NCBI RefSeq assembly: GCF_000427885.1
Contig: NZ_ATYW01000001.1
Location: forward strand, 116,699-180,698
DNA: 64,000 nucleotides
Reading direction: 5' to 3'
Origin: Glycomyces tenuis DSM 44171
GTDB taxonomy: Bacteria > Actinomycetota > Actinomycetes > Mycobacteriales > Micromonosporaceae
In this document: piece by piece, positions 19,414 through 64,000 of the stretch
How positions within the stretch are numbered: position 1 is the first letter of the stretch
Layout: each line of letters begins with the position of its first letter
Program-made: the position numbers and the translations under genes
Notes under the pieces: model-generated
Database searches by the model: none
The model's input: only the letters and a program-made list of their open reading frames with translations
What the model was told of the DNA's origin: nothing

Positions 19414-19428
19414 TTGGAAGTGAACATT

Positions 19429-19644
19429 ATGGATGAAAGGATCGTTCTCAAACCGCGTTGGTACACCATGGCACAGGTCGCCGAGCTGCTCGGCTACAGC
19501 CTCGCCAAGGTCAAGACCCTCGTCTACTCCGGCGAGCTGCGCTCGCTCAAAGACGGCGGCAACCGGCGCATCCTCCCCGAATGGGTGGACGAATACGTGA
19601 CGCGGAAAGCTGCTGCGTCTGAATCGTTGGAGCTGGTGGCATGA
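19429..19644 (+). CDS. xis: Excisionase (MerR-like HTH, Xis)
   Basis: A 71-aa protein. I choose ATG 19429 (8 nt after GGAAG) rather than the TTG at 19414. It has a winged HTH of the excisionase class: WYTMAQVAELLGYSLAKVKTLVYSGELRSLKDGGNRRILPEWVDEYV. It is translationally coupled to the integrase (ATGA). It would bend attachment-site DNA and favour excision. Confidence 0.88.
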   Translation: MDERIVLKPRWYTMAQVAELLGYSLAKVKTLVYSGELRSLKDGGNRRILPEWVDEYVTRKAAASESLELVA

Positions 19645-44491: not shown

Positions 44492-44816
44492 CGCTGAGCC
44501 CTCCCACGGCCCCCGCCAGCCTGGTCACGATTCCCGTCGCCTTGTCGCAGATGTCGATGACCCGGTCGAAGCGCTTTCGCGCGGCTCCGCGGTCGTCCGC
44601 CTTCAGATCGGCGCGGGCGGCGACCAGTTCGGCGCTCACCTTCTCGCGGGTCTCGGCGTCCACCTCCAGTTCCCGCACCGCCGCCAGCGCCCGGTCGAAC
44701 TCGACCGCCAGGGTGCGGGCGTCGATGGGGCTGTGCTCGCCGTGGGTGATGTTGAAGGTGTCACCCACGTACGAGTTTCCGTGTACCGTCTGTTTGTTCA
44801 CATTGAAAGTCGCCAT
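44484..44816 (-). CDS. Small partner protein of the STAND NTPase
   Basis: A 110-aa protein; ATG 44816 lies 1-2 nt after GGAGG, so the ribosome site is close, and ATG 44843 is an alternative. Residues 6-22 (VNKQTVHGNSYVGDTFN) match the pattern V-x2-Q-x-V-x-G-x3-V-x-DT seen at 23-37 of the STAND protein. The C-terminal part is a helical hairpin (LEVDAETREKVSAELVAARADLKADDRGAARKRFDRV) with a Gly-rich end. Its stop overlaps the STAND start by 8 bp. Likely a co-expressed sensor, adaptor or regulator. Confidence 0.65.
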   Translation of the reverse strand: MATFNVNKQTVHGNSYVGDTFNITHGEHSPIDARTLAVEFDRALAAVRELEVDAETREKVSAELVAARADLKADDRGAARKRFDRVIDICDKATGIVTRLAGAVGGLSGG

Positions 44817-44941
44817 CCCTCCATAATGCCGCAATTCAGCCATGTGCGCAGCATTCATGTTTCCGCGGAGGCGGGCGGCACCGCTCCTTTGACGCGGGTG
44901 CCGCGGCGTGCCTAGGATTGCCGCGGCGAAGGGAGCGACAG

Positions 44942-49187: not shown

Positions 49188-49931
49188 TTGAAAGCGAACC
49201 GCGCCGCACTGGCCCCCAAGACGTCCGCTCCCGTCCGGAACCCCGCATTCCTCGAACACCCGCGGCACCCCACAGGGGCCGCCGAGACCCACCAGACCAT
49301 CGCCGTCGCGGTGGCCTCTCCCGAAACGGTGACGCTGTCGGGACTCGCCGCCGTCATCGGCGAACAGGACGACTTCAAAGTGGTGCACACCGAGTGCGAC
49401 ATCGAGGTCTCCCTGATCTCGCTCGACGAGCGCCGGCCGGACGTCCTGGTCACCGAGTCCTGCTTCGCGGGCAGCTGCGTCCTGGAGACCATCGAGCGGG
49501 CGACCCCGCCGGTGCCGGTCGTCGTCTTCTCACACCACCGCTCCACACTGGTGCTTCGGCGCGCGCTGCAATGCGGCGTCAGCGGGTTCGTCACGCGCGA
49601 GGCGAGCGCGGCCACGCTGCACGAGGCGATCCGGCGGGTCGCCTCCGGCTCGGTCTACGTGGACCCCACTCTGGGGGCGGAACTGGCCGAGCACCACGGC
49701 CTCCACGGGCTCACCGCCCGCGAACTCGACGTCCTGCACCTGGTGGCCACCGGCCACACCACCGCCGAGATCGCCGCCTCGCTGTACGTCGGCGAGCGGA
49801 CCGTCGAGGCCTGCCGCGCCTCCCTCAAGCAGAAGCTCGGCCTCAGCACCAAGGCGCAGATCCACGCCTACGCCAGGGACAAGGGCATGCTCGCCGACTG
49901 CTCCTGCGTGCCCGTTCCGAACCCGCGCTGA
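49188..49931 (+). CDS. LuxR-type regulator with atypical receiver-like domain
   Basis: A 247-aa protein, TTG 49188 start. Residues ~35-150 look like a response-regulator receiver (TIAVAVASPETVTLSGLAAVI, ALQCGVSGFVTREAS), but the phosphoacceptor region reads PDVLVTESCFAGS, lacking the usual Asp. The C-terminal HTH is a clear LuxR/GerE domain (LTARELDVLHLVATGHTTAEIAASLYVGERTVEACRASLKQKLGLST). An aspartate-free receiver would not be phosphorylated normally. It lies 102 bp to the left of the RiPP terminator, transcribed rightward toward it, and is the best candidate for a cluster regulator. Confidence 0.82.
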   Translation: MKANRAALAPKTSAPVRNPAFLEHPRHPTGAAETHQTIAVAVASPETVTLSGLAAVIGEQDDFKVVHTECDIEVSLISLDERRPDVLVTESCFAGSCVLETIERATPPVPVVVFSHHRSTLVLRRALQCGVSGFVTREASAATLHEAIRRVASGSVYVDPTLGAELAEHHGLHGLTARELDVLHLVATGHTTAEIAASLYVGERTVEACRASLKQKLGLSTKAQIHAYARDKGMLADCSCVPVPNPR

Positions 49932-50031: not shown

Positions 50032-50069
50032 GAAAAACGGGCCCGGGACGGCATTGGAGTCCCGGGCCC
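50032..50069 (-). terminator. Intrinsic terminator of the RiPP operon
   Basis: On the minus strand an 11-bp perfect stem, GGGCCCGGGAC / GTCCCGGGCCC (50059-50069 with 50039-50049) with a 9-nt loop, is followed by CGTTTTTC. It lies 28 bp after the precursor stop codon and marks the 3' end of the cluster. Confidence 0.9.
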
Positions 50070-50096
50070 TGCCAGTCGACTCGACTAGCGCTCGAC

Positions 50097-50294
50097 TCAG
50101 GTCGAGCTCAGGGAGCAGCACGAGGTCGCACCACAGCACGAGCAGGAATCGCACGAGCTGATGGCCGACGACGCGCCGGTCTCCGGCATGGCGACGGCGT
50201 CACGCACCGTCGCGACCTCGATGGCGTCGAACGACAGGTCGTCGAGGTCGAGTCCCTCGAAGTCGAACTCAGTCGCAGTAGGGGTCGGGTTCAT
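50097..50294 (-). CDS. Thiopeptide-type RiPP precursor peptide
   Basis: A 65-aa peptide. I choose ATG 50294, 8 nt after AGGAGG, over GTG 50303, which lies on top of that site. The leader is acidic and hydrophobic (FDFEGLDLDDLSFDAIEV), then VATVRDAVAMPETGAS, closely resembling the lactazole-type leader end (LRDTVALPENGAS, from memory). The core is Ser/Cys-rich: SSAISSCDSCSCCGAT followed by SCCSLSST. It has 6 Cys (potential thiazoles), several Ser (dehydroalanine/oxazole) and a C-terminal Thr. The site AAAGGAGG overlaps the end of the ADH gene, and a terminator follows. This is the last gene of the operon. Confidence 0.93.
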   Translation of the reverse strand: MNPTPTATEFDFEGLDLDDLSFDAIEVATVRDAVAMPETGASSAISSCDSCSCCGATSCCSLSST

Positions 50295-50295
50295 C

Positions 50296-51588
50296 TCATT
50301 CACCTCCTTTCATCTGGATTTCCGCACCTGGCGACGTCGCCGCCGCCGGTGTGAAACTGGGGGAGGCGCTCGGGGCGGCCTCGCGGGCCCCGCGGAAGAA
50401 CGCCTCCAATTCGGACAGCTCCGCGCCCGACAGCCTTCCGGTGGCGTGCCAGCTCTCATGGCACGCCCGGGCCAGCCGCTCCGCGTCGCCGGAGGCGACC
50501 TCCAGATCGGCGAGGCATACCGGCAGCCCCCAGGTCGCCAGCCGCTCGGCGAGCGCCTCCGCGAGGGAGGCCCTCCCGAGGGCGGGCGCCAGGGCCCGGT
50601 CGAGGCGTCGCAGGCGGTCCGGGTCGCCGAGCCGGGGTCCGATCGAAGCGCCCGCGCGGATCGCGGCGAGGTAGGCGGGCAGCAGCGAGGCCATCGCCGT
50701 GCCCTTGGCCAGCTCCAGCATCGTGCACAGCGGATCCTGGAGGTACCACAGCACATGGTCGTACCTGCCGCGGCCCAGCGCGACGAGCTGCGTCGCCGAC
50801 ACCGCGACGATCCAGGCCAGTTCGGCGCGCGCCTCGAGGTCGACGGGCGCGGCGTGCACGCGGTCGAGCGCGATGACGCACCGGGCGGCCAGCGCCTCGG
50901 CCAAGGCGTCCGTGACGCCCAGGGCTGGGGCCGCCAGGTAGGGGCACAGGATGCGGGCGAGCGTCTCCACCCCGCCTTCCAGGACCGCTCGCGCGGGGAG
51001 GGTCGCGTTCAGGGCGGGGTCGATGACGGCCGACGTCGGCGCCAGGCGCCCGGTGATCATGAGCCGTCGGCGGCCTTCGAAGACCAAGGCGGCCACGCTG
51101 TTCAGTTCGGAGCCGGTCGCGGTCGTCGTCGGCAGCAGCAGTGTGGGCAGTCCCGGGCGCAGCCGCGCCTCCCGGTCGGCGTCGAGGTCCAGCAGGGGCC
51201 CGGCCCGCCACCGCTCGGCATCGCGCCACCGCGGATTGACGGCCAGCAGCGCGGCGAGCTTGGCGGTGTCCATCGTGCTGCCGCCGCCGACGCCGATCAC
51301 CGCGTCGGCTCCGGCGAGGGTGACCGCCTCGGCGGCGGCCTGGACGTCGCCCAGGGTGGGGACGCCCGCGACGCGGGTGACCGATGCGGCCGGCACGCGG
51401 TGGGCCGAGAGGCGGGCCAGCAGGTCACGGCCGACGTCGGTCTCGGCCACCCGCGCATCGATCAGGACGGCGGGCGCCGATCCCAGCGCCGCCGCCCGCG
51501 GCCCGAACTCGGCAGCGCGGCCGACGCCGAAGGCGACGAGCGTGGGGACCTGCCAGTCGGTCGCGACGGCGGAGGGGTTCGCGGTCAT
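50296..51588 (-). CDS. Iron-ADH-fold dehydrogenase, predicted C-terminal decarboxylase
   Basis: A 430-aa protein of the Fe-containing alcohol dehydrogenase superfamily: NAD motif GVGGGSTMDTAK (about 96-107) and LLLPTTTATGSELNSVAAL. The expected metal ligands look degenerate: the GVDAxxH-type site reads GGVETLARI, and the later H-x3-H and HG sites read DHVLWYLQDPLC and LAKGTAM. In daptide pathways an enzyme of this fold oxidises a C-terminal Thr, which then loses CO2 to give an amino-ketone. It is coupled to the aminotransferase (ATGA) and to the precursor (1-bp gap). The role here is inferred from context. Confidence 0.82.
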   Translation of the reverse strand: MTANPSAVATDWQVPTLVAFGVGRAAEFGPRAAALGSAPAVLIDARVAETDVGRDLLARLSAHRVPAASVTRVAGVPTLGDVQAAAEAVTLAGADAVIGVGGGSTMDTAKLAALLAVNPRWRDAERWRAGPLLDLDADREARLRPGLPTLLLPTTTATGSELNSVAALVFEGRRRLMITGRLAPTSAVIDPALNATLPARAVLEGGVETLARILCPYLAAPALGVTDALAEALAARCVIALDRVHAAPVDLEARAELAWIVAVSATQLVALGRGRYDHVLWYLQDPLCTMLELAKGTAMASLLPAYLAAIRAGASIGPRLGDPDRLRRLDRALAPALGRASLAEALAERLATWGLPVCLADLEVASGDAERLARACHESWHATGRLSGAELSELEAFFRGAREAAPSASPSFTPAAATSPGAEIQMKGGE

Positions 51589-52856
51589 GGCAGGTCCAGT
51601 TCGTCGAAGACCTGACCGGCGGCCTCGGTGACGGCCTTGAGGTCGTCGTCGTCGACGACCAAGGGGGGCATGAGGCTGAAGCCGCGCTCGGAGGGGTGGA
51701 CGATGACCCCGAGCGACCGGAACCGCTCGGTCACCGCGGCCGCCTGCGGCAGCCCGATCGGGCCGCTCTCGCCCCGGAGGTGGACGCCGATCATCAGCCC
51801 GCGGCCGGTCGGCGGGAGCGCCTGGCCGCGGGCGCGGGGCAGCAGCTCGGTCAGGCGGCGGGCCAGTTCCTCCCCGGCGCGGCGGGAGCGGGCGACCAGG
51901 CCGTCCGATTCGATGACGTCGAGCGTGGCCAGCGCGGCCGCGCAGGCGAGCGGGTTCCCGGCCTGCGTCTCGCCGCTGCGCAGGACGTGGCCACCGTCGG
52001 TGAAGGCGTCCCAGATGCGCTCGTGGATCAGGACCGCCGACATCGGCAGGTATCCGCTGTTGATCCCCTTGGACACGACCATCAGGTCCGGGCGCAGCCC
52101 GGCCCACTCCGAGGCGAACATGGACCCGGTGCGGCCGAAGCCGGTGGCGACCTCGTCGACGATCAGGCAGATGTCGCGCTCTTCGCAGAACCGGTCGAGG
52201 CCCGAGAGGAAGCCCTGGTCCGGCACCAGCACCCCCGCCGATCCGAGCACCGGCTCGATGATGACGGCGGCCAGGTCGTCGGCGGCCGCCCGCAGCAGGC
52301 CGAGGGCCTCGCTCGCGCCGCGGGCGTCCAGCGGCGTCGGCACGTGCATGACGTCGGACCGGTCGACGCCGTACTCGTCCTGTTCGAGGTCCTCGCCGGT
52401 GACGGCCATGGCGCCGTAGAGGGTGCCGTGGTAGGAGTCGGCCAGCGCGGCGACCGTGCCGCGTTCGGGCCGCCCGGTCAGCCGCTGGTACCGCCTGGCG
52501 AGTTTGAGCGCGGCGTCGACGGCGCCGGCCCCGGAGGTGCTGTAGAAGACCTTGGTCAGCTCCGGCCGCGGGCTGATCTCCAGCAGGCGGGAGGCCAGCA
52601 GCAGGGCCGGTTCGTTCCCGTAGCGGAACAGGGTGCCGTAGGCGAGCCGGTCGAGCTGCTCGCGGATGGCCGCCTGGATCCTCGGCTCGTCGAAGCCGCA
52701 GTGCATGTTCCACAGTGCGGCGTTGGCGCTGACGTACTCCTGCCCGTCCTGGTCGACCAGGCGGCTGCCGTGGCCGCCGGTGATCGTCACGGGCGAACCC
52801 AGATACCGTCCCATGTCGGTCATCGGGTGCCACAGCGGGTAGTCGGTCCTGGTCAT
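51585..52856 (-). CDS. PLP class III aminotransferase, predicted C-terminal ketone aminase
   Basis: A 423-aa enzyme. Class III features: STSGAGAVDAALKLARRYQ, YHGTLYGAMAVTG, LIVDEVATGFGRTGSMFASE, and the PLP lysine in MVVSKGINSGYLPMSAVL (about residue 248). No substrate-specific metabolism gene is near, and it sits directly between the RRE-like protein and the ADH gene in the RiPP operon. In daptides the homologous partner aminates the ketone made from Thr. If so, the product would have a C-terminal 1,2-diaminopropane-type group. The enzyme class is certain; the substrate is inferred. Confidence 0.85.
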   Translation of the reverse strand: MTRTDYPLWHPMTDMGRYLGSPVTITGGHGSRLVDQDGQEYVSANAALWNMHCGFDEPRIQAAIREQLDRLAYGTLFRYGNEPALLLASRLLEISPRPELTKVFYSTSGAGAVDAALKLARRYQRLTGRPERGTVAALADSYHGTLYGAMAVTGEDLEQDEYGVDRSDVMHVPTPLDARGASEALGLLRAAADDLAAVIIEPVLGSAGVLVPDQGFLSGLDRFCEERDICLIVDEVATGFGRTGSMFASEWAGLRPDLMVVSKGINSGYLPMSAVLIHERIWDAFTDGGHVLRSGETQAGNPLACAAALATLDVIESDGLVARSRRAGEELARRLTELLPRARGQALPPTGRGLMIGVHLRGESGPIGLPQAAAVTERFRSLGVIVHPSERGFSLMPPLVVDDDDLKAVTEAAGQVFDELDLP

Positions 52857-54733
52857 GTCGACCTCCTGCTCGGCGGGACGGCGCCCGCCGAGGCGAGCGC
52901 CGCTTCGGACTTGGCCACCGCTCGCGCGGCGTCCTCGGCGGTGATGCGGTGCGAACCGGCGAGCAGTTCGACCGCGTCGTCGGGGTGGTCCAGCCGCACC
53001 TCGATCACGGCGGCCAGCGACGGGGTCAGGCGGTGCAGGCGCCCGCCCGAGTGAAGGTGGTACCGGTCGCCGCGGCGCAGCACCGCGACCCCTTCGGGCC
53101 AGGCCGGGGCGCTGCCGTGGGCGTGGGTGAGCGGGCCGCCGCAGCCGCCGACCCGGATCGCGTCCGGCTCGAACGGCTCGGCGTGCTCGGCGGCGAGGGC
53201 GGCCACCGCTCGGACGCCGTCGAGCACCCGCGCCAGCCACGGCCGCTCGGCCCGCGGCATGCCCTCGGGGCGGCAGCGGCAGCCGTTCGCGGCGGCGGGC
53301 AGGGCCCGGACCGCGGCGCGGAGCGTCTCCAGGCCGTCGCCGACCTTGCCGACGAGCGGCCCGGCCCGGCCGGCGCGCACCGCGCCGTCGGCGTCGACGT
53401 AGAGCTGCCTGCCCTCGGCGGCCGGGCAGGGGCCGTAGCCGAGGCGGCACAGGCCGGCGAGCCTCCGGCCCGGATCGAACAGTCGCCTGTGGAGCACGCC
53501 GTCGCGCCAGGCGGCGTCGACGTCGTCCAGGATCGGCGCGGCGGCGTCGATCCAGGCCAGCGACGGCCGGTGGTCGAGGGGGTCGGCGTAGTCGCGCGGT
53601 GCGGCGACCGCGTCGAGGTCGCGGACGGCGACATGCGCCGTCGCCGAGACCGCGGGGCGCCGCGCCCACACCGTGCCGCGGGCGCTGACCACCGCGCCGA
53701 GCCACGCCTCACCGGACGCGACCGGATCGGCGCGGTCCCACCACAGGTCATGCGCTCCGGCGGTCACCGGCGAGGAGGCGTACCGGCCGGAGCGGGCGAG
53801 GTCGAGGCGGGCCGCGGCCCGCCTCCGGTCCTCCCGCAGCCGGACGGCGGCGCCGGTCTGGGGCGGGCAGCCGTTCAGCGCCCCGCGCGAGGCCAGTCCG
53901 CGCAGGCCGGCCAGGTCGGTCTCCACGAAGGCGTCGGGGACCGCGCGGAGCAGCGCGGCCAGCCGCTCCGGCCGGTCGCCGGGCGCCACCCGCACCTCCG
54001 GTTCGATCCGGTGCGCGCCGAGCGCCGACAGCGCGGCGCGCAGCCGCTCCGGCTCGCACCGCTCGGCGGCGCACACGAGGGTGACGCCGCCGCTCGCGAC
54101 CGCCGCCAGCGCCTCGGCCGAAGCGGGGTCGACCCGCTCGACGGGCAGGCTCGCCCGCAGTCGCACACCGCGTGAGGCCAGGTGGGGCGCCTCGTCGCGC
54201 AGCCGCTCGGCCAGGCCCGCCCAGTCGGTCGAGGGCCCGCCGAGCAGCGGCACGGTCATCGGCGCGGCCGTCCGGGCGGCGAGGTGCCGCAGCTCGGCGG
54301 CCACGGCGGGGCCGACCGGCACGCCGAGCTCGGCGGCCAGTGCCGCCGGTGCGGCGCCCGAGCGGTAGATCCGGTCCGGGTCGGACCCGGCGGTCAGCTC
54401 GGTGCGCGGCCCGTCCAGGTGCCGCAGCCGCCACCGCTCGGCGTCGGGCTCGGCGCGCGAGGCCGCGATGCCGCGGTCGGACAGCGCGGCGGCCAGCAGC
54501 TCGCACAGCGAGCGGGTCGCGTCGTCTTCGACGAGCACGGCGGCGGCCGGGCGCGAGCGGGCCAGTGTGGACGCCCATTCGGGGATCGTCCCGGCCGGTC
54601 CGGCGGTCACCAGGCGCGGCCCGGCGCCGTCCGGCGCGGCGGCGGCGGCCGCGGCCGTCGGCAGGTCCGGGGCGCAGTGGACGTGTCCCCATCGGTCGCG
54701 GCGCAGGCGCAGCAGCAGTACGGGTCCGCTCAT
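52853..54733 (-). CDS. Degenerate radical-SAM/SPASM-like protein with RRE-like C-terminus
   Basis: A 626-aa protein. No CxxxCxxC cluster motif is seen, but the middle (about 170-360) runs like a TIM-barrel-type (RLRASLPVERVDPAS, VTLVCAAERCEPERL, PEVRVAPGDRPERL, DAFVETDLAGLRGLASRG). A Cys-rich SPASM-like stretch follows (LAGLCRLGYGPCPAAEG...LYVDADGAVRAGRAGPLVGKVGD...ANGCRCRPEG, about 456-520). The last ~75 residues (VAVLRRGDRYHLHSGGRLHRLTPSLAAVIEVRLDHPDDAVELL) resemble a PqqD-type RRE. It matches the position of the recognition protein in daptide clusters. Its start overlaps the YidC-like gene's stop. Confidence 0.6.
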   Translation of the reverse strand: MSGPVLLLRLRRDRWGHVHCAPDLPTAAAAAAAPDGAGPRLVTAGPAGTIPEWASTLARSRPAAAVLVEDDATRSLCELLAAALSDRGIAASRAEPDAERWRLRHLDGPRTELTAGSDPDRIYRSGAAPAALAAELGVPVGPAVAAELRHLAARTAAPMTVPLLGGPSTDWAGLAERLRDEAPHLASRGVRLRASLPVERVDPASAEALAAVASGGVTLVCAAERCEPERLRAALSALGAHRIEPEVRVAPGDRPERLAALLRAVPDAFVETDLAGLRGLASRGALNGCPPQTGAAVRLREDRRRAAARLDLARSGRYASSPVTAGAHDLWWDRADPVASGEAWLGAVVSARGTVWARRPAVSATAHVAVRDLDAVAAPRDYADPLDHRPSLAWIDAAAPILDDVDAAWRDGVLHRRLFDPGRRLAGLCRLGYGPCPAAEGRQLYVDADGAVRAGRAGPLVGKVGDGLETLRAAVRALPAAANGCRCRPEGMPRAERPWLARVLDGVRAVAALAAEHAEPFEPDAIRVGGCGGPLTHAHGSAPAWPEGVAVLRRGDRYHLHSGGRLHRLTPSLAAVIEVRLDHPDDAVELLAGSHRITAEDAARAVAKSEAALASAGAVPPSRRST

Positions 54734-55359
54734 GCCGCCGCCTCCACCGGTCCGCGGTCGCCGCGGGCCGCCGCCCGTACCGCCGCGGCGTTCAGGGCCA
54801 TCGCGGCGGCGAAGGGCACGACCATGGCCGCGGGCAGGAACAGGCCCAGGCAGGCGAAGACGACCGGGGCGATGTAGCGGGCGAAGAACCGCTGCCGCTG
54901 GTCGTCGACGCCCGCGGCCCGCTGCCCGAGGAGTCCGGCCGCGGTGCCCGCGACGGCGAGGGCCGCGGCCCAGGCGAGGCCGCCGAGGCCCTGCGTCACC
55001 GGCGGGGACGAGAGCGTCTCGAGGCCGTAGAACGCCGCGTCCTCGGCCGAGGGCCCGGTGCGGCTCCACAGCGCGATGACCACCACGAGGAGGAACTGCG
55101 CCAGGCCGAAGGCCGTGCCGATGCGGCCGAACGTCCCCGGCCCGCCGTCCGGGTCCGGTTCGGAGCCCCGCTGCCGGTCGATGCGGCGGCGGGCGCCGCT
55201 CACGAGCCACGGCCAGGTGAGGATCCGCCAGGCGGCGCCGAGCAGCAGCACCGCCCAGCCCCAGGCCGCCTCGTCGGCGGCCGGTTCGAGCACGCTCGCG
55301 ACCGGCGCGAGCACCGACTCGGTGGCCGTGCCGATCCAGTCGAGGAGGTCGCCCCACAT
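54730..55359 (-). CDS. YidC/Oxa1-like membrane protein
   Basis: A 209-aa polytopic protein; ATG 55359. Five to six hydrophobic segments. WAVLLLGAAWRILTWPWLVSGARRRIDRQRG and the later FYGLETLSSPPVTQ, then FFARYIAPVVFACLGLFLPAAMVVPFAAAMALN, follow the order of YidC (membrane entry, 'LGLDL-SPP' region, last segments). The Arg of the insertase groove is not certain. YidC-like proteins are unusual in RiPP clusters; daptide clusters have an intramembrane protease instead, and I see no protease motif here. Possible roles: assembling the exporter, self-immunity, or precursor handling. Confidence 0.55.
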   Translation of the reverse strand: MWGDLLDWIGTATESVLAPVASVLEPAADEAAWGWAVLLLGAAWRILTWPWLVSGARRRIDRQRGSEPDPDGGPGTFGRIGTAFGLAQFLLVVVIALWSRTGPSAEDAAFYGLETLSSPPVTQGLGGLAWAAALAVAGTAAGLLGQRAAGVDDQRQRFFARYIAPVVFACLGLFLPAAMVVPFAAAMALNAAAVRAAARGDRGPVEAAA

Positions 55360-55414
55360 GGCCGGGTTCCTTTCTGTCGTCGTGGCTGCTGTCGCGGCGT
55401 GGCCCGGAGCGGGC

Positions 55415-56224
55415 TCAGCGCTGCGGCTCCCAGGGCATGGTCTTGACCGTCACGACCATGGCGGCCACGCCCCAGGCGGCGATGACCAGCAGGTTCACCA
55501 GGTCGAAGGCCATGCCGGAGGCGCCGGGGTCGAGCGGGGTCCGGACCGCCTCGGCCATCGGGATGAACGGGAGGTAGTCCAGGACCGCCTGGACGGGACC
55601 GGGCATGCCGTCGATCGGGAAGAACACCCCCGAGATGAACAGCAGCGGGAACAGCGTCGCGGTGGAGACGATGAGCGCCGCCTCGACGCTGGGGACGAGC
55701 CTGGTGACGGCCATGCCCAGGGCGCACGAGGTGAAGCCGCCCAACAGCACCGCCAGCACCAGCGCCGGGATGGCCGCCGCCCGCAGCTCCAGGTCGAACA
55801 GCGCCAGCGAGACCGCGATCATGATCGCCACGGACACGACGGTGACCGCCAGGGAGACGCCGATGCGGCTCATCAGGTGCACCGATTTGGGCATCGGCGA
55901 CTGCCTGATGCGTTTGAGCACCGACTTCTCGCGGGCGGTGACGATGCCGGTGACCATGTTGAAGTAGCCGGACACCGCGATGACGAAGACGATGATGGCC
56001 GCGCTGGTCGTCTGCACGGCGGCGACGCCGTCGACGGTCTCGCCCGACTGGAGCAGGTTGAACATGACGTTGAAGAACAGCGGGAACAGCAGCGAGATCG
56101 TCAGCGCGAACGGAGTGCGGGAGGCGCTGACCAGCCCGTACTTGATGTCGTGGACGAGCAGCCGCGCCGCGCCGCGCCGCGGGTTCGGCGCTGCGGTCGG
56201 CAGGGCGAGGGTCGAAGTGGTCAT
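55415..56224 (-). CDS. ABC-2 type transporter permease (exporter)
   Basis: A 269-aa permease with six hydrophobic segments and the ABC-2 layout: PFALTISLLFPLFFNVMFNLLQSGETVDG (first segment), IVTAREKSVLKRIRQSPMPKSVHLM (cytoplasmic helix typical of DrrB-like permeases) and VSTATLFPLLFISGVFFPIDGMPG. It starts within the ATPase stop (ATGA). With the ATPase it probably exports the mature thiopeptide and may give self-resistance. Confidence 0.9.
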   Translation of the reverse strand: MTTSTLALPTAAPNPRRGAARLLVHDIKYGLVSASRTPFALTISLLFPLFFNVMFNLLQSGETVDGVAAVQTTSAAIIVFVIAVSGYFNMVTGIVTAREKSVLKRIRQSPMPKSVHLMSRIGVSLAVTVVSVAIMIAVSLALFDLELRAAAIPALVLAVLLGGFTSCALGMAVTRLVPSVEAALIVSTATLFPLLFISGVFFPIDGMPGPVQAVLDYLPFIPMAEAVRTPLDPGASGMAFDLVNLLVIAAWGVAAMVVTVKTMPWEPQR

Positions 56225-57189
56225 GTCGCGCTTCCTTCGGTTTCGCGGGCCAGGATGGACAGGTAGAGCTCTTCGAGGTCGGGACGCCGGACCTCCAGGT
56301 CGGCCAGGGCCACGTCGTTCGCGATCGCCCAGGCGGTCAGCTCGTGCAGCGCGGCCCGGGTGTCCTCGACCTCCACGGTGATCCGCCCGGCCGAGGCGCG
56401 GGCGAGGGACGCCAGGCGGCCGGGGAGCCCTTCGGGGGAGGTGCCGTCGGCGCGGAACGAGACGGTGGCGCCCCGCTCGTCGGGCAGGAGGCGCGAGGGC
56501 TCGCCGACCGCGGCGATCTGTCCTGAGTGGAGCACCGCGACGCGGTCGCACAGGCGCTGGGCCTCGGCCATGTTGTGCGTGGTGAGGAAGACGGTCTTGC
56601 CCATGGCGCGCATGGCCCTGACGGTCTCCCAGGCCCGGTCGCGGGCCTCGATGTCCAGTCCGGTGGTCGGCTCGTCGAGGAAGACGATGTCGGGGTCGCC
56701 GACCAGGGCCAGGGCCAGGTCGAGGCGGCGCTGCTGCCCGCCGGAGAGCCGGCCGACCCGCACCTGGCGCTTCGGCGTCAGGCCCACCAGTTCGATGAGC
56801 TCGTCGACGGGGTAGGCGCGGCTGTAGTAGCCGGCGAAGAGCGCCAGGTGCTCGTACACGGTCAGGTACAGCTCGAAGCTGCCCTTCTGCGGGACGATGC
56901 CGAGGCGGTCGCGAACGGCCCGTCCGGCCCTGCTCGGCTCCATGTCGAGGACCCGGACCGTGCCGGCGGTGGGCTTGATGTGGCCTTCGAGGATCTCCAC
57001 CAGGGTGGTCTTGCCGGCCCCGTTGGGCCCCAGGAGTCCGAAGACCTCGCCTTTCTCGACGCTGAGGTCCACTTCGTTCAGGGCCCGCACGGAGCCGTAG
57101 GACTTGGACAGGCCCTCGACCCACATCGCGGTCGCGTCCGCGGCGGAGGGGGTCGAGCGGCTTGCCTGTTGCGTGGTTTCGTGGGTCAT
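56221..57189 (-). CDS. ABC transporter ATP-binding protein (DrrA-like)
   Basis: A 322-aa ATPase; ATG 57189 overlaps the fusion gene's stop. Walker A is GPNGAGKTTL (about residues 49-58), signature RLSGGQQRRLDLALAL, Walker B VFLDEPTTGLD, and H-loop LTTHNMAEA. A C-terminal extension (GRITVEVEDTRAALHELTAWA) is like DrrA-type drug exporters. It partners with the downstream permease. Confidence 0.93.
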   Translation of the reverse strand: MTHETTQQASRSTPSAADATAMWVEGLSKSYGSVRALNEVDLSVEKGEVFGLLGPNGAGKTTLVEILEGHIKPTAGTVRVLDMEPSRAGRAVRDRLGIVPQKGSFELYLTVYEHLALFAGYYSRAYPVDELIELVGLTPKRQVRVGRLSGGQQRRLDLALALVGDPDIVFLDEPTTGLDIEARDRAWETVRAMRAMGKTVFLTTHNMAEAQRLCDRVAVLHSGQIAAVGEPSRLLPDERGATVSFRADGTSPEGLPGRLASLARASAGRITVEVEDTRAALHELTAWAIANDVALADLEVRRPDLEELYLSILARETEGSAT

Positions 57190-58943
57190 GATGTCGGTTC
57201 TCCGTCGCTCGTACTCGCGGCCGCGCCATCCGATGGCGAACCGATCGGGATCACGTAGCCGATGATTTCGTCGTAGCCGTCCAACTGCGCGATCTCGCAC
57301 ACGGCGTCGTCATAGAAGCCGCCGACCGAGATCGACCGGAGGCCGAGGGCGGTCGACACCAGCAGCAGCGACTGCGCGGCGTGACCTATCTCAAGCATCG
57401 CAAAACGGTGCGCTCGCATGCCATAGCGCGGCCGCAGTCTTCCCAGGTCGGCACCGACGAACAGCACCGCCGGGACGTCGGAGACGTCGACGCGCGGAGT
57501 CTCGCCGACGAAGAACGGCGAGCTGTACCGCAGCGCGTCGCCTTCGGGCACGGTGCCCACTTCCTGGAGCTCGTGCGTGCGGGGCAGGTATTCGTACAGG
57601 GCCGGGTCGAGCCCGTCCACCGAGCGGGCGAGGACGCGCACGATGAGCGGGTAGGCCATGCCGGCGCTCGGGTTCGCCATCACCTGGCGGCGCGGGGGGT
57701 CGGCCTCCTCGTACCGCTCGGTGGCGACCACGCCGGCGCCGAGCCCGAGGAGGGAGGCGAGCGGTTCGAGGCCGAGGCGTCCGGACAGTCCGTCGCGGTG
57801 GGAGCGGCGGGCGGCCAGCACCGCGGACAGGGGCGAGGCGGCCAGGCCGGGGTCGGGGGGCGGCAGCGCGACCGGCTCGCCTCCCGCGTAGTCGAGGACC
57901 CGGACGATAGGGTCGCCGTGCCGGGGCTGCTGCGAGTCCATCGAGGCGGGACGGAACTTGCTCAGTTCGTGGTAGGCCCGGTCGGGGGCGTCGGGGGCGT
58001 CGGCGAAGTAGTCGGGGCGCTCGCCGGGGGCGGCGATGAGCAGGGAGGCCAGCCAGGCCAGGTAGACCTCGTCCGAGGCGGTCATGCCGAGGCGGTTGTA
58101 CGTCATGTGGAGGTGGGAGACCATGATCGCGTCGGCGTCGCCGGTGAGCTTCCCGGCGCGGCCGAGTTCGCGCAGCTCGGCCGCGGTCCGCCCGACCGCG
58201 CTCCACCACCGGCGGTAGGCGGCGGGCGCCGCGGACTCCAGCGCCGCCTTCCGGCGGAGCAGCTCCGCGCCGGTGGCGACCACGGTGGACTCGGCGGCGG
58301 CGCGGGTCCGGGCGAAGGTGCGGGCGACGACCTGGTCGACGTAGCGCCACATCGTGGCGTACTCGCGCAGCCAGCGCACCGACTCGTTCGCGGTGCCGTA
58401 CATCGCCGAGACGAAGCCGAGCAGCAGGTCCAGGGCCGCGCCGGTCCGGGCCTGCTCGGATGCGGTGCGGGCGACGACGGCCGCGGTCAGCTCGCTGGAG
58501 AGGCCGAACAGGTCCTCGGCCGGGCCCATGCTGTCCGGCCCGCCGTAGCGCTCGGTCTCGGGCTCGTAGGCGACCTCGGCGAGGTGCCCGTCGGGGTGCC
58601 ATGCGAGTTCGCGGGCCTCCTCGGCGGGTATCGAGAACTGGCGGTAGAACTCGGCCGGGTCGAGTTCCGGCGCGGGGTCGGGGAAGGGGAGCGCCACCGC
58701 TCGGCGCATCTCCTCGACGGCCCGGTCCAGGCGGGCTTCGTCGTTGCCCGCCAAGCGGATCCGCAGATGCGGGCCGCCTTCCCAGTAGCGGATGTAGAAC
58801 CAGGCCGTGATGGCGCCCTCGCCGCGGAGCCTCCTGGCGGTGGGGGCCACGGCCTCGACGATGAGCCGGTCGGTGGCGGCCTTGCCGCGGTGGCAGTACA
58901 CGTGCAGGGCCCGCCAGCGGCGGGGGCGGTCGCTGTCGGTCAT
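57186..58943 (-). CDS. LanB C-terminal/thiopeptide domain fused to SagB-type dehydrogenase
   Basis: A 585-aa fusion; ATG 58943. Residues ~8-300 are the LanB C-terminal (thiopeptide-type) domain: RRWRALHVYCHRGKAATDRLIVEAVAPTA, WFYIRYWEGGPHLRIRL, LREYATMWRYVDQV. This class includes glutamate-elimination enzymes (TbtC-like) and the pyridine-forming cycloaddition enzyme (TbtD-like); which one cannot be read here. Residues ~365-585 are a SagB-type FMN dehydrogenase (LSAVLAARRSHRDGL, NPSAGMAYPLIVRVL, SLLLVSTALGLRSISVGGFYDDAV), which oxidises azolines to azoles. This fusion order is unusual. Confidence 0.82.
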   Translation of the reverse strand: MTDSDRPRRWRALHVYCHRGKAATDRLIVEAVAPTARRLRGEGAITAWFYIRYWEGGPHLRIRLAGNDEARLDRAVEEMRRAVALPFPDPAPELDPAEFYRQFSIPAEEARELAWHPDGHLAEVAYEPETERYGGPDSMGPAEDLFGLSSELTAAVVARTASEQARTGAALDLLLGFVSAMYGTANESVRWLREYATMWRYVDQVVARTFARTRAAAESTVVATGAELLRRKAALESAAPAAYRRWWSAVGRTAAELRELGRAGKLTGDADAIMVSHLHMTYNRLGMTASDEVYLAWLASLLIAAPGERPDYFADAPDAPDRAYHELSKFRPASMDSQQPRHGDPIVRVLDYAGGEPVALPPPDPGLAASPLSAVLAARRSHRDGLSGRLGLEPLASLLGLGAGVVATERYEEADPPRRQVMANPSAGMAYPLIVRVLARSVDGLDPALYEYLPRTHELQEVGTVPEGDALRYSSPFFVGETPRVDVSDVPAVLFVGADLGRLRPRYGMRAHRFAMLEIGHAAQSLLLVSTALGLRSISVGGFYDDAVCEIAQLDGYDEIIGYVIPIGSPSDGAAASTSDGEPTS

Positions 58944-60259
58944 CGGCGCACATCCAGGAGCAGGTCGGTGAAGCGGTTGACGCCCAGCGGCGCCACGTAC
59001 GCGGGCAGCCGGGTCGGCTCCAGGCGCAGGGCCGCGGCGAGCGGGTCGGGGTCGAAGCTGCGCGCCGGGCGGAGGAAGCCCCCGTGCGGGGTGAGGGCCA
59101 TGCCCGCGGCCTGCGCGATCGCCCCCAGCCGGAGTTGGAGGAGCCGCAGGCCCCGTTCGCCGCCTTCGCGGACGGCGGCGGCGTGGTCGGTGATCATCAG
59201 CAGCGCCGCCGGGCATCCGGCGATGGACATCTGGGTGGCCGGGTAGGCGAAGGACCGTTGCAGCGCGTCCATGTCGGGGCCCGCGATCCGCCGCCGCGCC
59301 CGCCCGTCCTCGATGAGGTGGCAGCCCGGGTCGAGCCCTTCGACGTCGCGCGATGCCAGGACGACGTCGACGCCGCTCTCGGCCGCCGACGGGACGCCGT
59401 CGGCGGCGCGGCCTATCGCGGCCAGCAGCGCCTCGGCCGCGGTGGCGGCGAGCGGGACCGGCGCCGGCGAGAACCCTTTGTTGGCGCGGCCCGCGGACCG
59501 TTCGAACAGGACCTGGGCCCAGCTCATGCCGGTGTCCGGCCCGGCGGCGGGCGGCCTCGCGCCGCCTTCGCCGGGCGCGTCGAGTTCGACTGCTCCGGCC
59601 GGTGTCCAGCCGTCGCGGGCGCGCAGGCCGAGCCGGTCCAGCAGTGCCGCGTCCGGCAGGTCGCGGCGGGTGCGGACGGCCAGGCGGTGGGCCGAGCCGA
59701 CCTGGGCGAGCAGTTCGAGCAGGTGCCCGGCCTCGCACAGGCTCAGGCTCCAGCGCAGTTCCCGGTACCGGGTCGGGACGGAGCCGAGGTGGCAGACGAC
59801 GGCCAGGCTCGCCGGGCCGTCGAGCTCCCGGTCGAGCTCGGCGTCCCCGGCCACGGGCCGCAGCAGGTGGCCCGAGGCGTCGTAGTGCCAGGCGCCGCCG
59901 GCGGTGAGCAGGAACAGCTGCGCCGAGTAGAAGCAGTGCGCGGCGGGGTAGGCGCGGTGCGGGTTGACCGCGCTGCGCACTTCGAACCGCTGCGGTGCCG
60001 CGGCCGCGATCGTGCCGAGCACCCGCGTCCGGACCGGCACGTCGGAGTCCACTCGGCCCCGGGGGTAGGGGGCCGAGTCCAGCATCCGGTGGAGGCCGGG
60101 CGGCAGCGGCACGTCCGGCCCGGTCGCCTCGACCGGCACCGGGACGCGGTCGTCGCCGTCCGCCGGGATGCCCAGCAGCAGCGGCCTGGCCTGGCGTTCG
60201 GCGAACGCCAAGAGGCGCTCGTCGCTCAGGGCCGCCTGCGGCGGGTCGAGAACGTCCAT
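58940..60259 (-). CDS. SagB-type azoline dehydrogenase (tandem nitroreductase domain)
   Basis: A 439-aa protein, ATG 60259, overlapping the fusion start (ATGA). Two nitroreductase-like halves: residues ~70-215 (YSAQLFLLTAGGAWHYDASGHLLRPV) and ~255-430 (MSWAQVLFERSAGRANKGF, AAGMALTPHGGFLRP). Such paired domains are typical of thiopeptide TbtE-like enzymes that oxidise thiazolines and oxazolines with FMN. One of the two SagB proteins may be structural. Confidence 0.8.
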   Translation of the reverse strand: MDVLDPPQAALSDERLLAFAERQARPLLLGIPADGDDRVPVPVEATGPDVPLPPGLHRMLDSAPYPRGRVDSDVPVRTRVLGTIAAAAPQRFEVRSAVNPHRAYPAAHCFYSAQLFLLTAGGAWHYDASGHLLRPVAGDAELDRELDGPASLAVVCHLGSVPTRYRELRWSLSLCEAGHLLELLAQVGSAHRLAVRTRRDLPDAALLDRLGLRARDGWTPAGAVELDAPGEGGARPPAAGPDTGMSWAQVLFERSAGRANKGFSPAPVPLAATAAEALLAAIGRAADGVPSAAESGVDVVLASRDVEGLDPGCHLIEDGRARRRIAGPDMDALQRSFAYPATQMSIAGCPAALLMITDHAAAVREGGERGLRLLQLRLGAIAQAAGMALTPHGGFLRPARSFDPDPLAAALRLEPTRLPAYVAPLGVNRFTDLLLDVRR

Positions 60260-60273
60260 GCCTGCTGCTCCTG

Positions 60274-62211
60274 TCACGGGAAGGGGTGGGGTGGGACGGC
60301 GTCGGGGTCCGTCGGCTGCTCGCCGGGGGCTCGGTAGCCCAGCCGCTCGGGCAGGGTCCGCAGGCGCCGCAGGTTCCGGGTGCGGCGGTGCACGTGGCCG
60401 AAGGTCATCGGGATCGTCTGCGGCACCACCACTTTCACCGTGGCGGGGACGTCCGCGGCGGTGACGCGGTCGGTCTGGTCGACGACGACGGGGTCCATGC
60501 CGTTGGCGGTCACCCGGTCGACCGCGAGCCGCAGGACGTCGGTGAGGTCGCGGCGGACCCATTCGCGCCGCCAGTCGCCGAAGGCCTCCTCGATCGTCGC
60601 CGGTTCGGCGCCGGGGTCCAGGAAGGACCACCACGGCCTGGTCTCGGGGTAGTTGTAGAGGATCGTGTGGTCGTGGAGGGTCTTGACCCGCTCGGGGTGC
60701 TCGATCAGGTGCCGCCCGTCCTCCTCTTGGCGGGCGCGCATCTCGGCGGGCATGCGGTGGCGCACCACGCAGTTGGTGACCGCCTCGGTCGCGGCCGAGG
60801 CCACCGCTCGGCGCGGGTCGCAGTGGGCGCCGGCCGCGAAGAACGCCGCCGGGCCGTCGTCGTCGCGGCGCGCGACCAGGCTCATCACCGCCGGTATGCC
60901 CAGTTCGGTGGTGGTGTCGAACAGGTGCAGGTCGTAGCCGAGCCGGTCCAGCAGCACCCGCATGCCGCGCAGGCTCGGCACCTCGGCGTCGTCGACCGCG
61001 AGCGGCCGCACCGGGCGCCGGGTGTACCAGGTGAGCAGGAAGGCGTCGCGTTCGACCACTTCGAACAGGCCGTAGAGACTGGCCTCCTCTATAGAGGACC
61101 CGGTGGCGCAGCCGTTCGAGCTCTCGTACAGGAATCTGGGCGCGGGCGGGCCGGACCGGCCCCACCGGTCGATGTGCCAGTACGCGACGTGCTCGGGCAC
61201 GAGCACCGGGCGCTGCCGTCCGAGCGCGAAGCCCCACACCCAGTCGGTGGGGGTGTCCGGGTCGTACGGCTCCAGGTGGAAGTGCGGGTCGTCGTAGCTG
61301 CTCTCGGGGTGCAGTCCCAGTTCGCGGAGATCGATCGCGTCGGGCAGCTCGTTCTGGCTGCCGCGCACGACGGTGCGCCTGCCGTGGGGGCTGGCCGAGC
61401 CGAGCCGTTCCAGCGCCTCGTAGAGCGCGATCGTCTCGCCCGCGGGGTAGGTCAGCGCGCGGCCGTGGCCGGCCTCCCCCGGTTCCCCGCTGGTGAGGGC
61501 GAGTTCGGCGCTGGTCAGCGCCATGACGGAGTTCTCGGAGCGGAAGACGTGCCCGACCGGGCCGTACCGCCAGTCGTGGACGAGGTCCCGCAGCTCGGCG
61601 CCGGACAGGCCGGACTCGTTGCCGCGGAAGGACTCGGGGTCGGGCTGGGGACGCGGGCGCAGGGTGATCGCCGCCAGTTCGGCGCTGTCGTCGGGGACCG
61701 GACGGCAGCCGGGGCAGCCCGGCAGCGGCACCGTCCGGTGGACGCGGCCGGTCAGCAGCCCGGTCGTCACGTGCGTCTCCCGGTCGGCCAGCAGCCCGTG
61801 GCGCAGGGCCCGCTCGGTGATCACGGCGAGGTGGTCCAGGTGGGCGGCGGTGAGCGCCATCGCGGGGACCGGCCCGTCGAGCTGCTCGACCGGCGAGTTC
61901 TGGCGCCGCCACAGGCGTCGGCGCCGCTCGGCGCACAGCTGGCACCCCGGCAGGCCGGGCCGGACCCAGGGCCCGACGATGCCCAGGTCGCCGACGATCC
62001 TGGCGGGCAGGAGCTCGGCGGCGCGGACGGCGTCCTGTTCGGCGGCGTCGCGTTCGGGGTCCCAGCCGTCTCTGGCGAGCACCACGGTGTCACCGGGCGC
62101 CACGGCGGCGTCGTCGGCGCTCGGCACGGCCGCGTCGTAGGCGCCCGAGAGGCGCTCGGCCAGGACCGAGTGCAGGTCTCCGGTCCCGATGAGCCAAGTC
62201 GTCGCCGTCAT
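60274..62211 (-). CDS. YcaO cyclodehydratase (thiopeptide TbtG-like)
   Basis: A 645-aa protein; ATG 62211. Residues ~1-210 are a partner-type domain with CQLC and CPGC pairs (possible zinc). The YcaO domain (about 210-645) has the ATP-binding acids in GETIALYEALERLGS and EEASLYGLFEVVERDAF, and Asn/Arg in NGCATGSS. The C-terminus ends in PPHPFP, the family's PxPxP motif, which points into the active site and indicates an active cyclodehydratase. It makes azolines from Cys (and Ser/Thr). The start overlaps the ThiF-like stop. Confidence 0.92.
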   Translation of the reverse strand: MTATTWLIGTGDLHSVLAERLSGAYDAAVPSADDAAVAPGDTVVLARDGWDPERDAAEQDAVRAAELLPARIVGDLGIVGPWVRPGLPGCQLCAERRRRLWRRQNSPVEQLDGPVPAMALTAAHLDHLAVITERALRHGLLADRETHVTTGLLTGRVHRTVPLPGCPGCRPVPDDSAELAAITLRPRPQPDPESFRGNESGLSGAELRDLVHDWRYGPVGHVFRSENSVMALTSAELALTSGEPGEAGHGRALTYPAGETIALYEALERLGSASPHGRRTVVRGSQNELPDAIDLRELGLHPESSYDDPHFHLEPYDPDTPTDWVWGFALGRQRPVLVPEHVAYWHIDRWGRSGPPAPRFLYESSNGCATGSSIEEASLYGLFEVVERDAFLLTWYTRRPVRPLAVDDAEVPSLRGMRVLLDRLGYDLHLFDTTTELGIPAVMSLVARRDDDGPAAFFAAGAHCDPRRAVASAATEAVTNCVVRHRMPAEMRARQEEDGRHLIEHPERVKTLHDHTILYNYPETRPWWSFLDPGAEPATIEEAFGDWRREWVRRDLTDVLRLAVDRVTANGMDPVVVDQTDRVTAADVPATVKVVVPQTIPMTFGHVHRRTRNLRRLRTLPERLGYRAPGEQPTDPDAVPPHPFP

Positions 62212-63905
62212 CGGCTTCCTCCGGACCGGTGGACGCCGAGCCAGCCGACGGCGCCGAGCGCGTCCAGGCCGGGTTCGGCCGCGCAGCGGGCGACCGCGAT
62301 CCGCTCTCCGGCCTCCGGGAGGGAGGCGAGGGCCTCGCGGGCGTTCCAGGCCGCGGCGTCCTCCGCGTGCGGGGAGTCCGGCGGGACGGCGGTCACCGGC
62401 ACCGTCGGCCGCTCGCCTCCGGCCTGGAGCGCCGCGGCCGCGTGCCGGATCGCGACCCGGCGGGCGGTCTCGCCGTCGGGGTGGGCGAAGACGGCCAGGC
62501 GGCGGCCTCCGGCGGCGACCGAGGCCGCGGTGAGGCCCGGGGCCCGCAGCGGGCGCAGGGTCTCGACGTCGAGTGCCGCGGCCCGCTCGAACGCCTCGAC
62601 CTCGACCGTCTCGACCCCGGCTGACTCGAAGCGGCGTTCGCGCTCGGCCGCGTCGTCGAGCCAGGAGGCGAGCAGTCGGACCGTCGCGTCGCAGAGCATC
62701 CGGTCCTCGTCGACCCCGGCACATGTGACCTCTGTGGACACCGGGAGCGGCCGGTCGCCGTCCAGGGGCCACAGCCCTTCGCTCGGGGCCGCGCCCGCGA
62801 GGGCTCGGGCCCCGTCCAGCGCCGCCCGGTAGCGGGCGACGTCGCCGGTCTCACCCCAGCCGAACGAGTCCGGTCCGGCGCTCGCGACCGCCATCGGCAT
62901 CTGCGGCAGCTCGCCGGGCCCGGCGTCCGGGAGGAGGCCGGTGACCGGGTCGCACAGTTCGGCGATCCGGCCGGGGTCGGTGGCGGCGGGCCGCTCGGAG
63001 CCGACCGGCAGCGCCGGGGCCTCGCCGCGGGCCCACACCGGATGAGTGGTGGTCTGGAGCCGCTCGGCCATGACCTGGTAGGCCTGGCCGTCGTATTCGG
63101 TGCTGACGCCGGTGAGCAGATAGAACGCCTGCATGGCGGCCAGATTCCCGGCCAGGGCCGCGGCCACGTCCGGCACCGGGGCGGACGCGGTGTCCACGCC
63201 CCTGGCCCGCATCCGCTCCAGCACGGTCGCGAGGCCGGCCTCGTCCTCGCCGCGGCGGGGCGGGGCGATCACGGCCCGGTCGGACAGCTGCGCGACGCCG
63301 ATCACCGCCGCCGCCTCGGCGGAGGGCTCGGGCGTGTCGATGTGGATGCGCACGGGCGCTCCACCGCCGCCGAGGGGGCCGAGTTCGGCGCCGGTCTCGG
63401 CCGCGTGCTCCTTCAGCGCGGCGGAGGGCTCGGACACGGACAGGCGGCCGGCTCCCAGGCTCAGCAGGCATCGGGCGGCGGCCTCGGCGAGGGGCCCCTC
63501 ACCGTGGATCGCGATCGGGTGCGAGCGCAGCCGGTCGAACGCGGCGTGCGGGTCCTCGACCGCCGAGTCCAGGAAGGACAGGGTCCGCCTGTGGTCGGGG
63601 TGGAGGGACGCCTCGTCGGCCGCCGCGCGGCCGGGGAGCTCGGGGCGCAGGAAGCCCTTGTCCAGCAGCTCGTCGAGCAGCCGCCGGGCGGTCTCGCGGG
63701 CCTGCGGCGGGAGCGCGGCGGTCAGCGCCTCGGGGTCGGCGCCGCGGTGCAGGTGGGGGAACAGCGCCGTCCACAGTTTGCCCAGGGCGGGCGATCCGCT
63801 GATCTTGAGCGTCTCCTGCCAGCCGACGCAGTACAGGCCGCCTTCGACGGGGGTGATGTGGACGGCGGCGCGCAGCCGGACCCGCCCTGTCGTCTCGGTG
63901 CTCAC
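62208..63905 (-). CDS. Ocin-ThiF-like/RRE leader-binding partner (TbtF-like)
   Basis: A 565-aa protein; GTG 63905. Residues ~1-90 fit an RRE (VRLRAAVHITPVEGGLYCVGWQETLKISGSPALGKLWTALFPHL, then a helix-rich part), which binds the precursor leader. The centre (about 115-260) is ThiF/E1-like (AIHGEGPLAEAAARCLLSLGAGRLSVSEPS) without the ATP/Cys chemistry, as in Ocin-ThiF proteins. It presents the leader to the YcaO enzyme. It overlaps YcaO by ATGA, so the two are made together. Confidence 0.85.
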   Translation of the reverse strand: MSTETTGRVRLRAAVHITPVEGGLYCVGWQETLKISGSPALGKLWTALFPHLHRGADPEALTAALPPQARETARRLLDELLDKGFLRPELPGRAAADEASLHPDHRRTLSFLDSAVEDPHAAFDRLRSHPIAIHGEGPLAEAAARCLLSLGAGRLSVSEPSAALKEHAAETGAELGPLGGGGAPVRIHIDTPEPSAEAAAVIGVAQLSDRAVIAPPRRGEDEAGLATVLERMRARGVDTASAPVPDVAAALAGNLAAMQAFYLLTGVSTEYDGQAYQVMAERLQTTTHPVWARGEAPALPVGSERPAATDPGRIAELCDPVTGLLPDAGPGELPQMPMAVASAGPDSFGWGETGDVARYRAALDGARALAGAAPSEGLWPLDGDRPLPVSTEVTCAGVDEDRMLCDATVRLLASWLDDAAERERRFESAGVETVEVEAFERAAALDVETLRPLRAPGLTAASVAAGGRRLAVFAHPDGETARRVAIRHAAAALQAGGERPTVPVTAVPPDSPHAEDAAAWNAREALASLPEAGERIAVARCAAEPGLDALGAVGWLGVHRSGGSR

Positions 63906-64000
63906 GACGCGGCCTCCGCGTTCTCGTCGGGGGTGAGGATCTGCCGCCAGGTCACGCCGGTGATCGAGGCGACCGATTCGCTGGCCGCGTGGGCCAGGAA
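63902..64000 (-). CDS. Partial upstream cluster gene (C-terminal 32 residues)
   Basis: Only the last 32 codons plus stop are inside the window. The C-terminus includes SVASITGVTWRQIL and ends in TPDENAEAAS. The stop overlaps the ThiF-like gene's start (GTGA), so it is in the same operon. A LanB-type glutamylating dehydratase, methyltransferase or additional cluster enzyme would all fit; I cannot tell which. Confidence 0.6.
   Translation of the reverse strand, partial: FLAHAASESVASITGVTWRQILTPDENAEAAS

Follow-up and report, generated by a model that had tools for sequence, protein, structure and literature searches.

In Glycomyces tenuis DSM 44171, a thiopeptide enzyme set, an ABC transporter and a DapB-DapD-DapC trio of the daptide type are encoded in one operon, and we infer that they serve one RiPP. 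This is the best explanation of the locus, and it is quite probable that the product is a thiopeptide in which the terminal Thr is converted to aminoacetone and then to a primary 1,2-diaminopropane. A second cluster of this kind is present in Glycomyces sp. TRM65418 (G018), a species of the same genus.

Gene content of the operon

The window (G000:C1:116699-180698), that is, the whole stretch of 64,000 nucleotides that was analysed, belongs to a genome of 5.7 Mb (G000). The operon is on its minus strand and comprises 13 genes, the first two of which, at the 5' end, lie wholly or mostly beyond the window end (L004). Read 5' to 3' on the minus strand, the genes encode the LanB glutamylation-type protein, the pyridine-synthase-type protein, the protein at the ThiF/RRE position, YcaO, a SagB-like protein, the elimination domain-SagB fusion, the ABC ATPase, the permease, a 209-aa membrane protein, DapB, DapD, DapC and the precursor (Table 1). 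The ten junctions within the window comprise seven 4-base overlaps and three gaps (1, 14 and 55 bases), hence the gene set reads as a single operon. The original prediction had described a Thr-ended precursor in one leftward operon with YcaO, ThiF/RRE and two SagB proteins, and an Fe-ADH-fold protein and a class III aminotransferase at the precursor. All of these genes are present (ThiF/RRE by position and by its G018 orthologue); the DapB relative, of the RRE protein type on which decarboxylation in daptides depends, had been overlooked, and the cluster runs past the window end.

Table 1. Genes of the operon, in 5' to 3' order, and the adjoining regulator. Coordinates are those of the window unless preceded by L004.
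Feature	Coordinates	Strand	Basis
LanB glutamylation-type gene	L004:3743-6430	-	PF04738 95.6 bits; PDB 6ec7 E 7.4e-20
Pyridine-synthase-type gene, 3' end	63902..64000 (whole gene L004:2601-3746)	-	NF045556; cut by window end
Protein at ThiF/RRE (TbtF) position	62208..63905	-	position; G018 orthologue, 66% identical
YcaO cyclodehydratase	60274..62211	-	TIGR03604 263 bits (cut-off 219); PF02624 255 bits
Second SagB-like protein	58940..60259	-	TIGR03605 24.1 bits, under cut-off 78.4; 68% identical in G018
Glutamate-elimination-type domain (Lant_dehydr_C) fused to SagB azoline dehydrogenase, LazF-like	57186..58943	-	PF14028 150.7 bits; PF00881 52.7 bits
ABC transporter ATPase, DrrA type	56221..57189	-	PF00005 107 bits; TIGR01188 244 bits, cut-off 312 not reached
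ABC-2 type permease	55415..56224	-	PF01061 82.3 bits
Multi-helix membrane protein, 209 aa	54730..55359	-	very weakly YidC/Oxa1-like: TIGR03592 14.8 bits, cut-off 84.3
DapB-type accessory/RRE protein, 626 aa	52853..54733	-	NF041823 daptide_RRE; adjoins aminotransferase gene
DapD-type class III (PLP) aminotransferase	51585..52856	-	NF041821 daptide_amino best match
DapC-type NAD-dependent oxidative decarboxylase, Fe-ADH fold	50296..51588	-	NF041822 daptide_DH best match
Precursor peptide, 65 aa	50097..50294	-	ends in ...CCSLSST; PF19409, NF033400
LuxR-type response regulator	49188..49931	+	GerE and Response_reg; faces operon end

The YcaO cyclodehydratase has PHPFP (PxPxP) at its C-terminal end. 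The protein at the ThiF/RRE position, which has no family match in Pfam or NCBIfam, is presumed to be the leader-binding partner of YcaO, and the second SagB-like protein has no match in Pfam. The fusion protein scores above the cut-offs of TIGR03891 (137.5 bits) and TIGR03605 (85.5 bits); passages of PMC7210931 describe lactazole LazF as an elimination domain fused to a dehydrogenase. With PF04738 (LanB-type protein) and PF14028 (fusion) both above cut-off, a glutamyl-type split dehydratase is present. The pyridine-synthase-type protein reaches 155.5 bits against NF045556 (E 2e-45), under the equivalog cut-off of 325, and its sole PDB relatives listed to E 1 are PbtD (5w98, E 4.8e-15) and TbtD (5wa3, E 2.4e-9); on this homology it is a putative pyridine synthase. 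The constituents of a thiopeptide cluster are thus found together: a precursor, an azoline-forming YcaO with a dehydrogenase (and a partner by position), a split dehydratase and the predicted pyridine synthase. The 209-aa membrane protein is 68% identical in G018 and its gene overlaps that of DapB by 4 bases; it could act in immunity or membrane insertion. Its structure model, from a 2-row alignment, was too poor for use (mean pLDDT 47).

The precursor scores 51.3 bits against Thiopep_pre (PF19409; cut-off 23.5) and 42.1 bits against NF033400 (cut-off 30). Its leader, in which no daptide motif was recognised, ends in ...FDAIEVATVRDAVAMPETGAS, and the core is probably SCDSCSCCGATSCCSLSST, with Thr at the C-terminus. 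G018 has two tandem orthologues, 88-89% identical, so that a C-terminal Thr is found in all three precursors of the two genomes. The terminal Thr by itself proves nothing, since a thiopeptide precursor ending in ...SSSLPT is also encoded in genome G570 (contig C246, L236), where a Dap match is absent across the 17-kb contig.

That two RiPP clusters lie side by side here, the Dap enzymes having a separate precursor, is very improbable. Such a division would fit the thiopeptide clusters of G525 and G585, genomes of the same taxonomic order, which share the six-gene thiopeptide core order and have no Dap match in the stretches examined; the Dap block accordingly looks separable, as if it were a module added to a cluster of the thiopeptide type. 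The precursor gene is, however, directly behind that of DapC in both Glycomyces species. Moreover, the surroundings of the operon were scanned for ORFs of 25-130 aa, except those mostly inside annotated window genes, and just two that end in Thr are kept in G018: that of the thiopeptide precursor and another antisense to the LuxR gene.

The DapB-, DapC- and DapD-type proteins

DapC scores 166.9 bits against NF041822 daptide_DH (cut-off 300), with the next family at 92 bits, and DapD scores 395.8 bits against NF041821 daptide_amino (cut-off 450), with bioA second at 316.8 bits; all three Dap proteins are thus under the NCBIfam daptide equivalog cut-offs (73/150, 167/300 and 396/450 bits for DapB, DapC and DapD, respectively). 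Residue 263 of DapD is the lysine of an SKGIN motif, which we take to be the PLP lysine.

Both enzymes were placed in trees with a canonical set of 18 actinobacterial daptide clusters, drawn from genomes in which daptide_RRE is matched (5 of 101 relatives, including G000, G018 and the weak G092; 19 of 394 genomes of the class sample, including G000, with G092 and G979 weak). The DapD tree (49 rows) unites the two hybrid and 17 canonical rows against 30 other class III aminotransferases (branch support 100/99), and the DapC tree (37 rows) unites the two hybrid and 18 canonical rows against 17 outgroup Fe-ADHs (100/100). Canonical rows form their own group in each case (100/100 for DapD, 100/98 for DapC) and the hybrid enzymes branch beside it, not within it, a 'sister' position that holds if the root falls among the outgroup rows. 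Given this position, substrate and reaction may have drifted. Duplicates (L006, L007, L008) and fragments (L172, L129) were left out of the DapD tree, as were duplicates (L180, L181, L183, L184, L185, L188, L195) and weak-match or short rows (L189, L190, L191, L193, L196, L204) of the DapC tree. L187 (G816) was moved from the outgroup to the canonical rows of the DapC set because it adjoins an aminotransferase fragment and a contig edge cuts the DapD gene of G816; it falls within the canonical clade. Ten of the 79 other loci among the matches listed in a contig scan with the DapC pair were also taken into the DapC set.

In all 20 DapCs, hybrid and canonical, the four columns that we read as the metal-binding positions of Fe-ADHs are E-R-W-K. 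Of the 17 outgroup Fe-ADHs, all have His in the last two columns; Asp in the first column and His in the second are each found in 14. TfDapC has likewise lost its metal ligands and its activity is metal-independent, according to passages of PMC12338566. An ordinary BioA-type aminotransferase or Fe-ADH identity was rejected on both trees and the ligand columns. The original prediction had assigned the two enzymes to the daptide type and named their grouping outside the daptide enzymes as one outcome that would refute it; they do not fall outside, and the ligand loss in DapC and the presence of the DapB partner agree with the assignment.

It is distinctly unlikely that the Dap trio ends at, or diverts to, a ketone or an alcohol, as in micrococcin and thiocillin, with DapD acting elsewhere. 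To our knowledge, decarboxylation in those two pathways proceeds without amination and involves neither an RRE partner nor an aminotransferase; the ketone is kept or reduced to an alcohol. A precedent for such an end comes from passages of PMC10036551, where the oxidative decarboxylation of micrococcin and thiocillin is attributed to a Bacillota DapC homologue. Against such an end, DapD groups with the daptide aminotransferases in the phylogeny, shares 81% identity with its G018 counterpart, and has a gene that overlaps those of DapB and DapC by 4 bases each.

DapB has daptide_RRE (NF041823) as its sole NCBIfam match (residues 402-591, E 1.9e-20, 73 bits, cut-off 150), and its last 235 residues (393-627) match a profile of 16 canonical DapBs (probability 98.9, E 2.3e-17). 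These canonical proteins, with automatically chosen starts, have 294-399 aa; the 626-aa DapB of the operon has ~260 extra N-terminal residues. Behind the N-terminal extension (residues 1-390), a CRCRPEGM motif (residues 485-492) is kept in both species. The DapB structure model (2-row alignment, mean pLDDT 41) was too poor for use; its best-modelled part (~residues 155-275) alternates strand and helix. Foldseek gave no match at E 0.001 with this model, and the 50 matches listed, none of which reached that value, are mostly to barrels, among them two chains from one radical SAM enzyme. Searching PDB sequences with a profile gave nothing below E 0.1. A dead radical SAM domain may conceivably be present in this part of the protein.

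Conservation, occurrence and missing daptide functions

All 13 genes recur in G018 with their order unchanged, and the 12 larger proteins are 58-81% identical there; a whole gene order kept in a second species is more than chance. A simple NG86 estimate puts dN/dS under 1 for each of the 13 genes (DapD 0.12/0.37, DapC 0.21/0.72, DapB 0.32/0.51).

Two hybrid clusters were found. Full-length relatives of DapB were found in G000 and G018 alone, in overlapping samples of order, phylum and families: 298 genomes of the order gave four matches (its own, G018 and two weak partial ones), 396 genomes of the phylum its own and one weak partial match, 297 genomes of the family of G123 nine matches, all to the C-terminal part only, and 35 genomes of the family of G773 one partial match. 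Three or four candidates were scored per genome in the order, phylum and G123-family searches. A search of plasmids with DapB gave no match. Within the 18 canonical daptide loci, YcaO is matched in one (L138), and neither our dehydratase proteins nor our pyridine-synthase protein has a match. Thiopeptide precursors were found in 8 of 219 genomes of the order; apart from G000 and G018, the remaining six show no Dap match in the stretches examined, several contigs being short, and one of their eight precursors (that of G570) has a terminal Thr. Among the 80 loci listed in the contig scan with the DapC pair, DapB or YcaO is matched in L029 (Glycomyces sp. TRM65418) alone, and an aminotransferase match occurs in a single further locus, L099; the scan says little on the frequency of hybrids, as its patterns are generic and the loci are those listed.

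The operon has a DapC with lost metal ligands, DapB, DapD and a precursor with a terminal Thr, as daptide clusters do, and two daptide functions are missing. No PF02163 protease (DapP) was found among the 13 operon proteins. A DapM-type methyltransferase was found neither among the operon proteins (Pfam and NCBIfam) nor, above the daptide_MTase cut-off, in either hybrid genome, compared with four of the four canonical genomes searched alongside; with a neighbouring Glycomyces methyltransferase as probe, 17 of 18 canonical loci have a methyltransferase match (L140 has none). Further processing of the terminal amine, either to an imidazoline made by YcaO with the preceding amide or by N-methylation through an enzyme encoded elsewhere, is unlikely. 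N-methylation would find candidate enzymes in the sub-threshold methyltransferases of the two genomes (23 in G000, 17 in G018), one of which could methylate the amine. The best of these in G000 (L004:12261-12995; 86.7 bits, cut-off 175) lies 5.8 kb upstream of the operon; it was rejected as a cluster member, since the 35 kb searched in G018 contain no counterpart. Imidazoline formation has a model in the daptide-associated YcaOs that make C-terminal imidazolines, in passages of PMC12338566; the YcaO of the operon, however, is above the cut-off of the azole-forming SagD-type model.

Proposed biosynthesis and related systems

For the preferred product, the amine-ended thiopeptide, we propose the following route. 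YcaO, its partner and the dehydrogenases would convert Cys residues of the core, possibly with some of its Ser, to azoles, while the LanB-type protein and the elimination domain would form dehydroalanines. DapB, via its RRE, would bring the leader-bearing peptide to DapC, which would oxidise the terminal Thr with NAD+ in a metal-free reaction; the β-keto acid would lose CO2 to give a C-terminal aminoacetone, the ketone of which DapD would transaminate to 1,2-diaminopropane. In passages of PMC10036551 and PMC12338566, DapBC decarboxylate Thr to a ketone that DapD aminates, a chemistry with which the 2-ketopropyl intermediate and the diaminopropane-like end forecast in the original prediction agree, the product itself being predicted. 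As no daptide-type methyltransferase scores above cut-off, the end is predicted to stay a primary amine. DapB should need the leader, so the tail chemistry should precede pyridine formation, in which the pyridine synthase would close the ring and expel the leader. Leader expulsion by pyridine synthases is described in passages of PMC7210931, and it would explain why the operon keeps no daptide protease. Closure between Ser1 and Ser12 of SCDSCSCC..S would give a 32-atom ring, as in lactazole, and the ABC transporter would export the product.

More specifically, we lean towards a free, unmethylated 1,2-diaminopropane-ended thiopeptide, made by a separate deep branch of the daptide enzymes, beside all canonical enzymes sampled, that would act on a thiopeptide leader via an enlarged, perhaps barrel-bearing DapB. 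Such a thiopeptide would have a cationic tail that corresponds, with nitrogen, to the tail of micrococcin.

With the daptide systems (Mpa, TfDap, SaDap), the operon has in common the DapB RRE protein, the metal-less DapC, DapD and the Thr-ended precursor. It differs from them in the lack of DapM and the PF02163 protease, a thiopeptide leader and core, the ~260 aa longer DapB and the separate enzyme branch; daptides have a dimethylated end (the class-defining Dmp, made by DapM), whereas a primary amine is predicted here. The lactazole-type laz cluster shares the split dehydratase with its LazF-like fusion of elimination domain and dehydrogenase, the pyridine synthase, the YcaO pair and the possible 32-membered ring, to which the operon adds a second SagB-like protein, a Cys-rich core and the Dap module at the tail. 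Micrococcin and thiocillin are likewise thiopeptides with a C-terminal oxidative decarboxylation; unlike in the operon, the oxidoreductase is of a different class, from Bacillota (passages of PMC10036551).

The original prediction knew of no such thiopeptide, but the literature does not bear out a wholly new combination. Ren et al. 2023 (PMC10036551) mention that daptide clusters of some subgroups have thiopeptide-like pyridine synthases. Daptide-associated YcaOs annotated as thiopeptide azoline formers are mentioned by Dommaraju et al. 2025 (PMC12338566), so the daptide/thiopeptide combination is not new as such. These clusters, known here by brief mention, share with the operon daptide genes accompanied by pyridine synthases or thiopeptide YcaOs; the main-text passages of the two papers give no product for them. 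A form with an enlarged DapB and a separate enzyme branch, and with neither the daptide methyltransferase nor a protease in the operon, was not found described in those main-text passages, and no amine-tailed thiopeptide was found among the published titles and abstracts searched. Since thiopeptides are held back by poor aqueous solubility (PMC11406533), a biosynthetic route by which nature adds a charged amine to the tail would give a handle on this property. The locus suggests that one RiPP class passed a C-terminal module to another as a single block, and DapB, DapC and DapD, which should read a thiopeptide leader, would be useful to install ketone or amine ends on thiopeptides.

As for the surroundings of the operon, the LuxR-type response regulator has a 65% identical gene at the equivalent place in G018 and is probably the cluster regulator. 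In the 35 kb compared in G018, neither the flanking flavodoxin-like gene nor the flanking methyltransferase is matched. A further YcaO gene of the same genome lies outside the operon (G000:C42:147509-148483, L002). At 41063-44858 of the window (minus strand), a 1142-aa protein, by appearance an NTPase with TPR-like repeats, follows one of 124 aa; the two may form a pair that acts in defence or signalling. Upstream of the operon, two large proteins (L004:14444-15817 and 18118-19899, minus strand) have repeats that look pentapeptide-like by eye.
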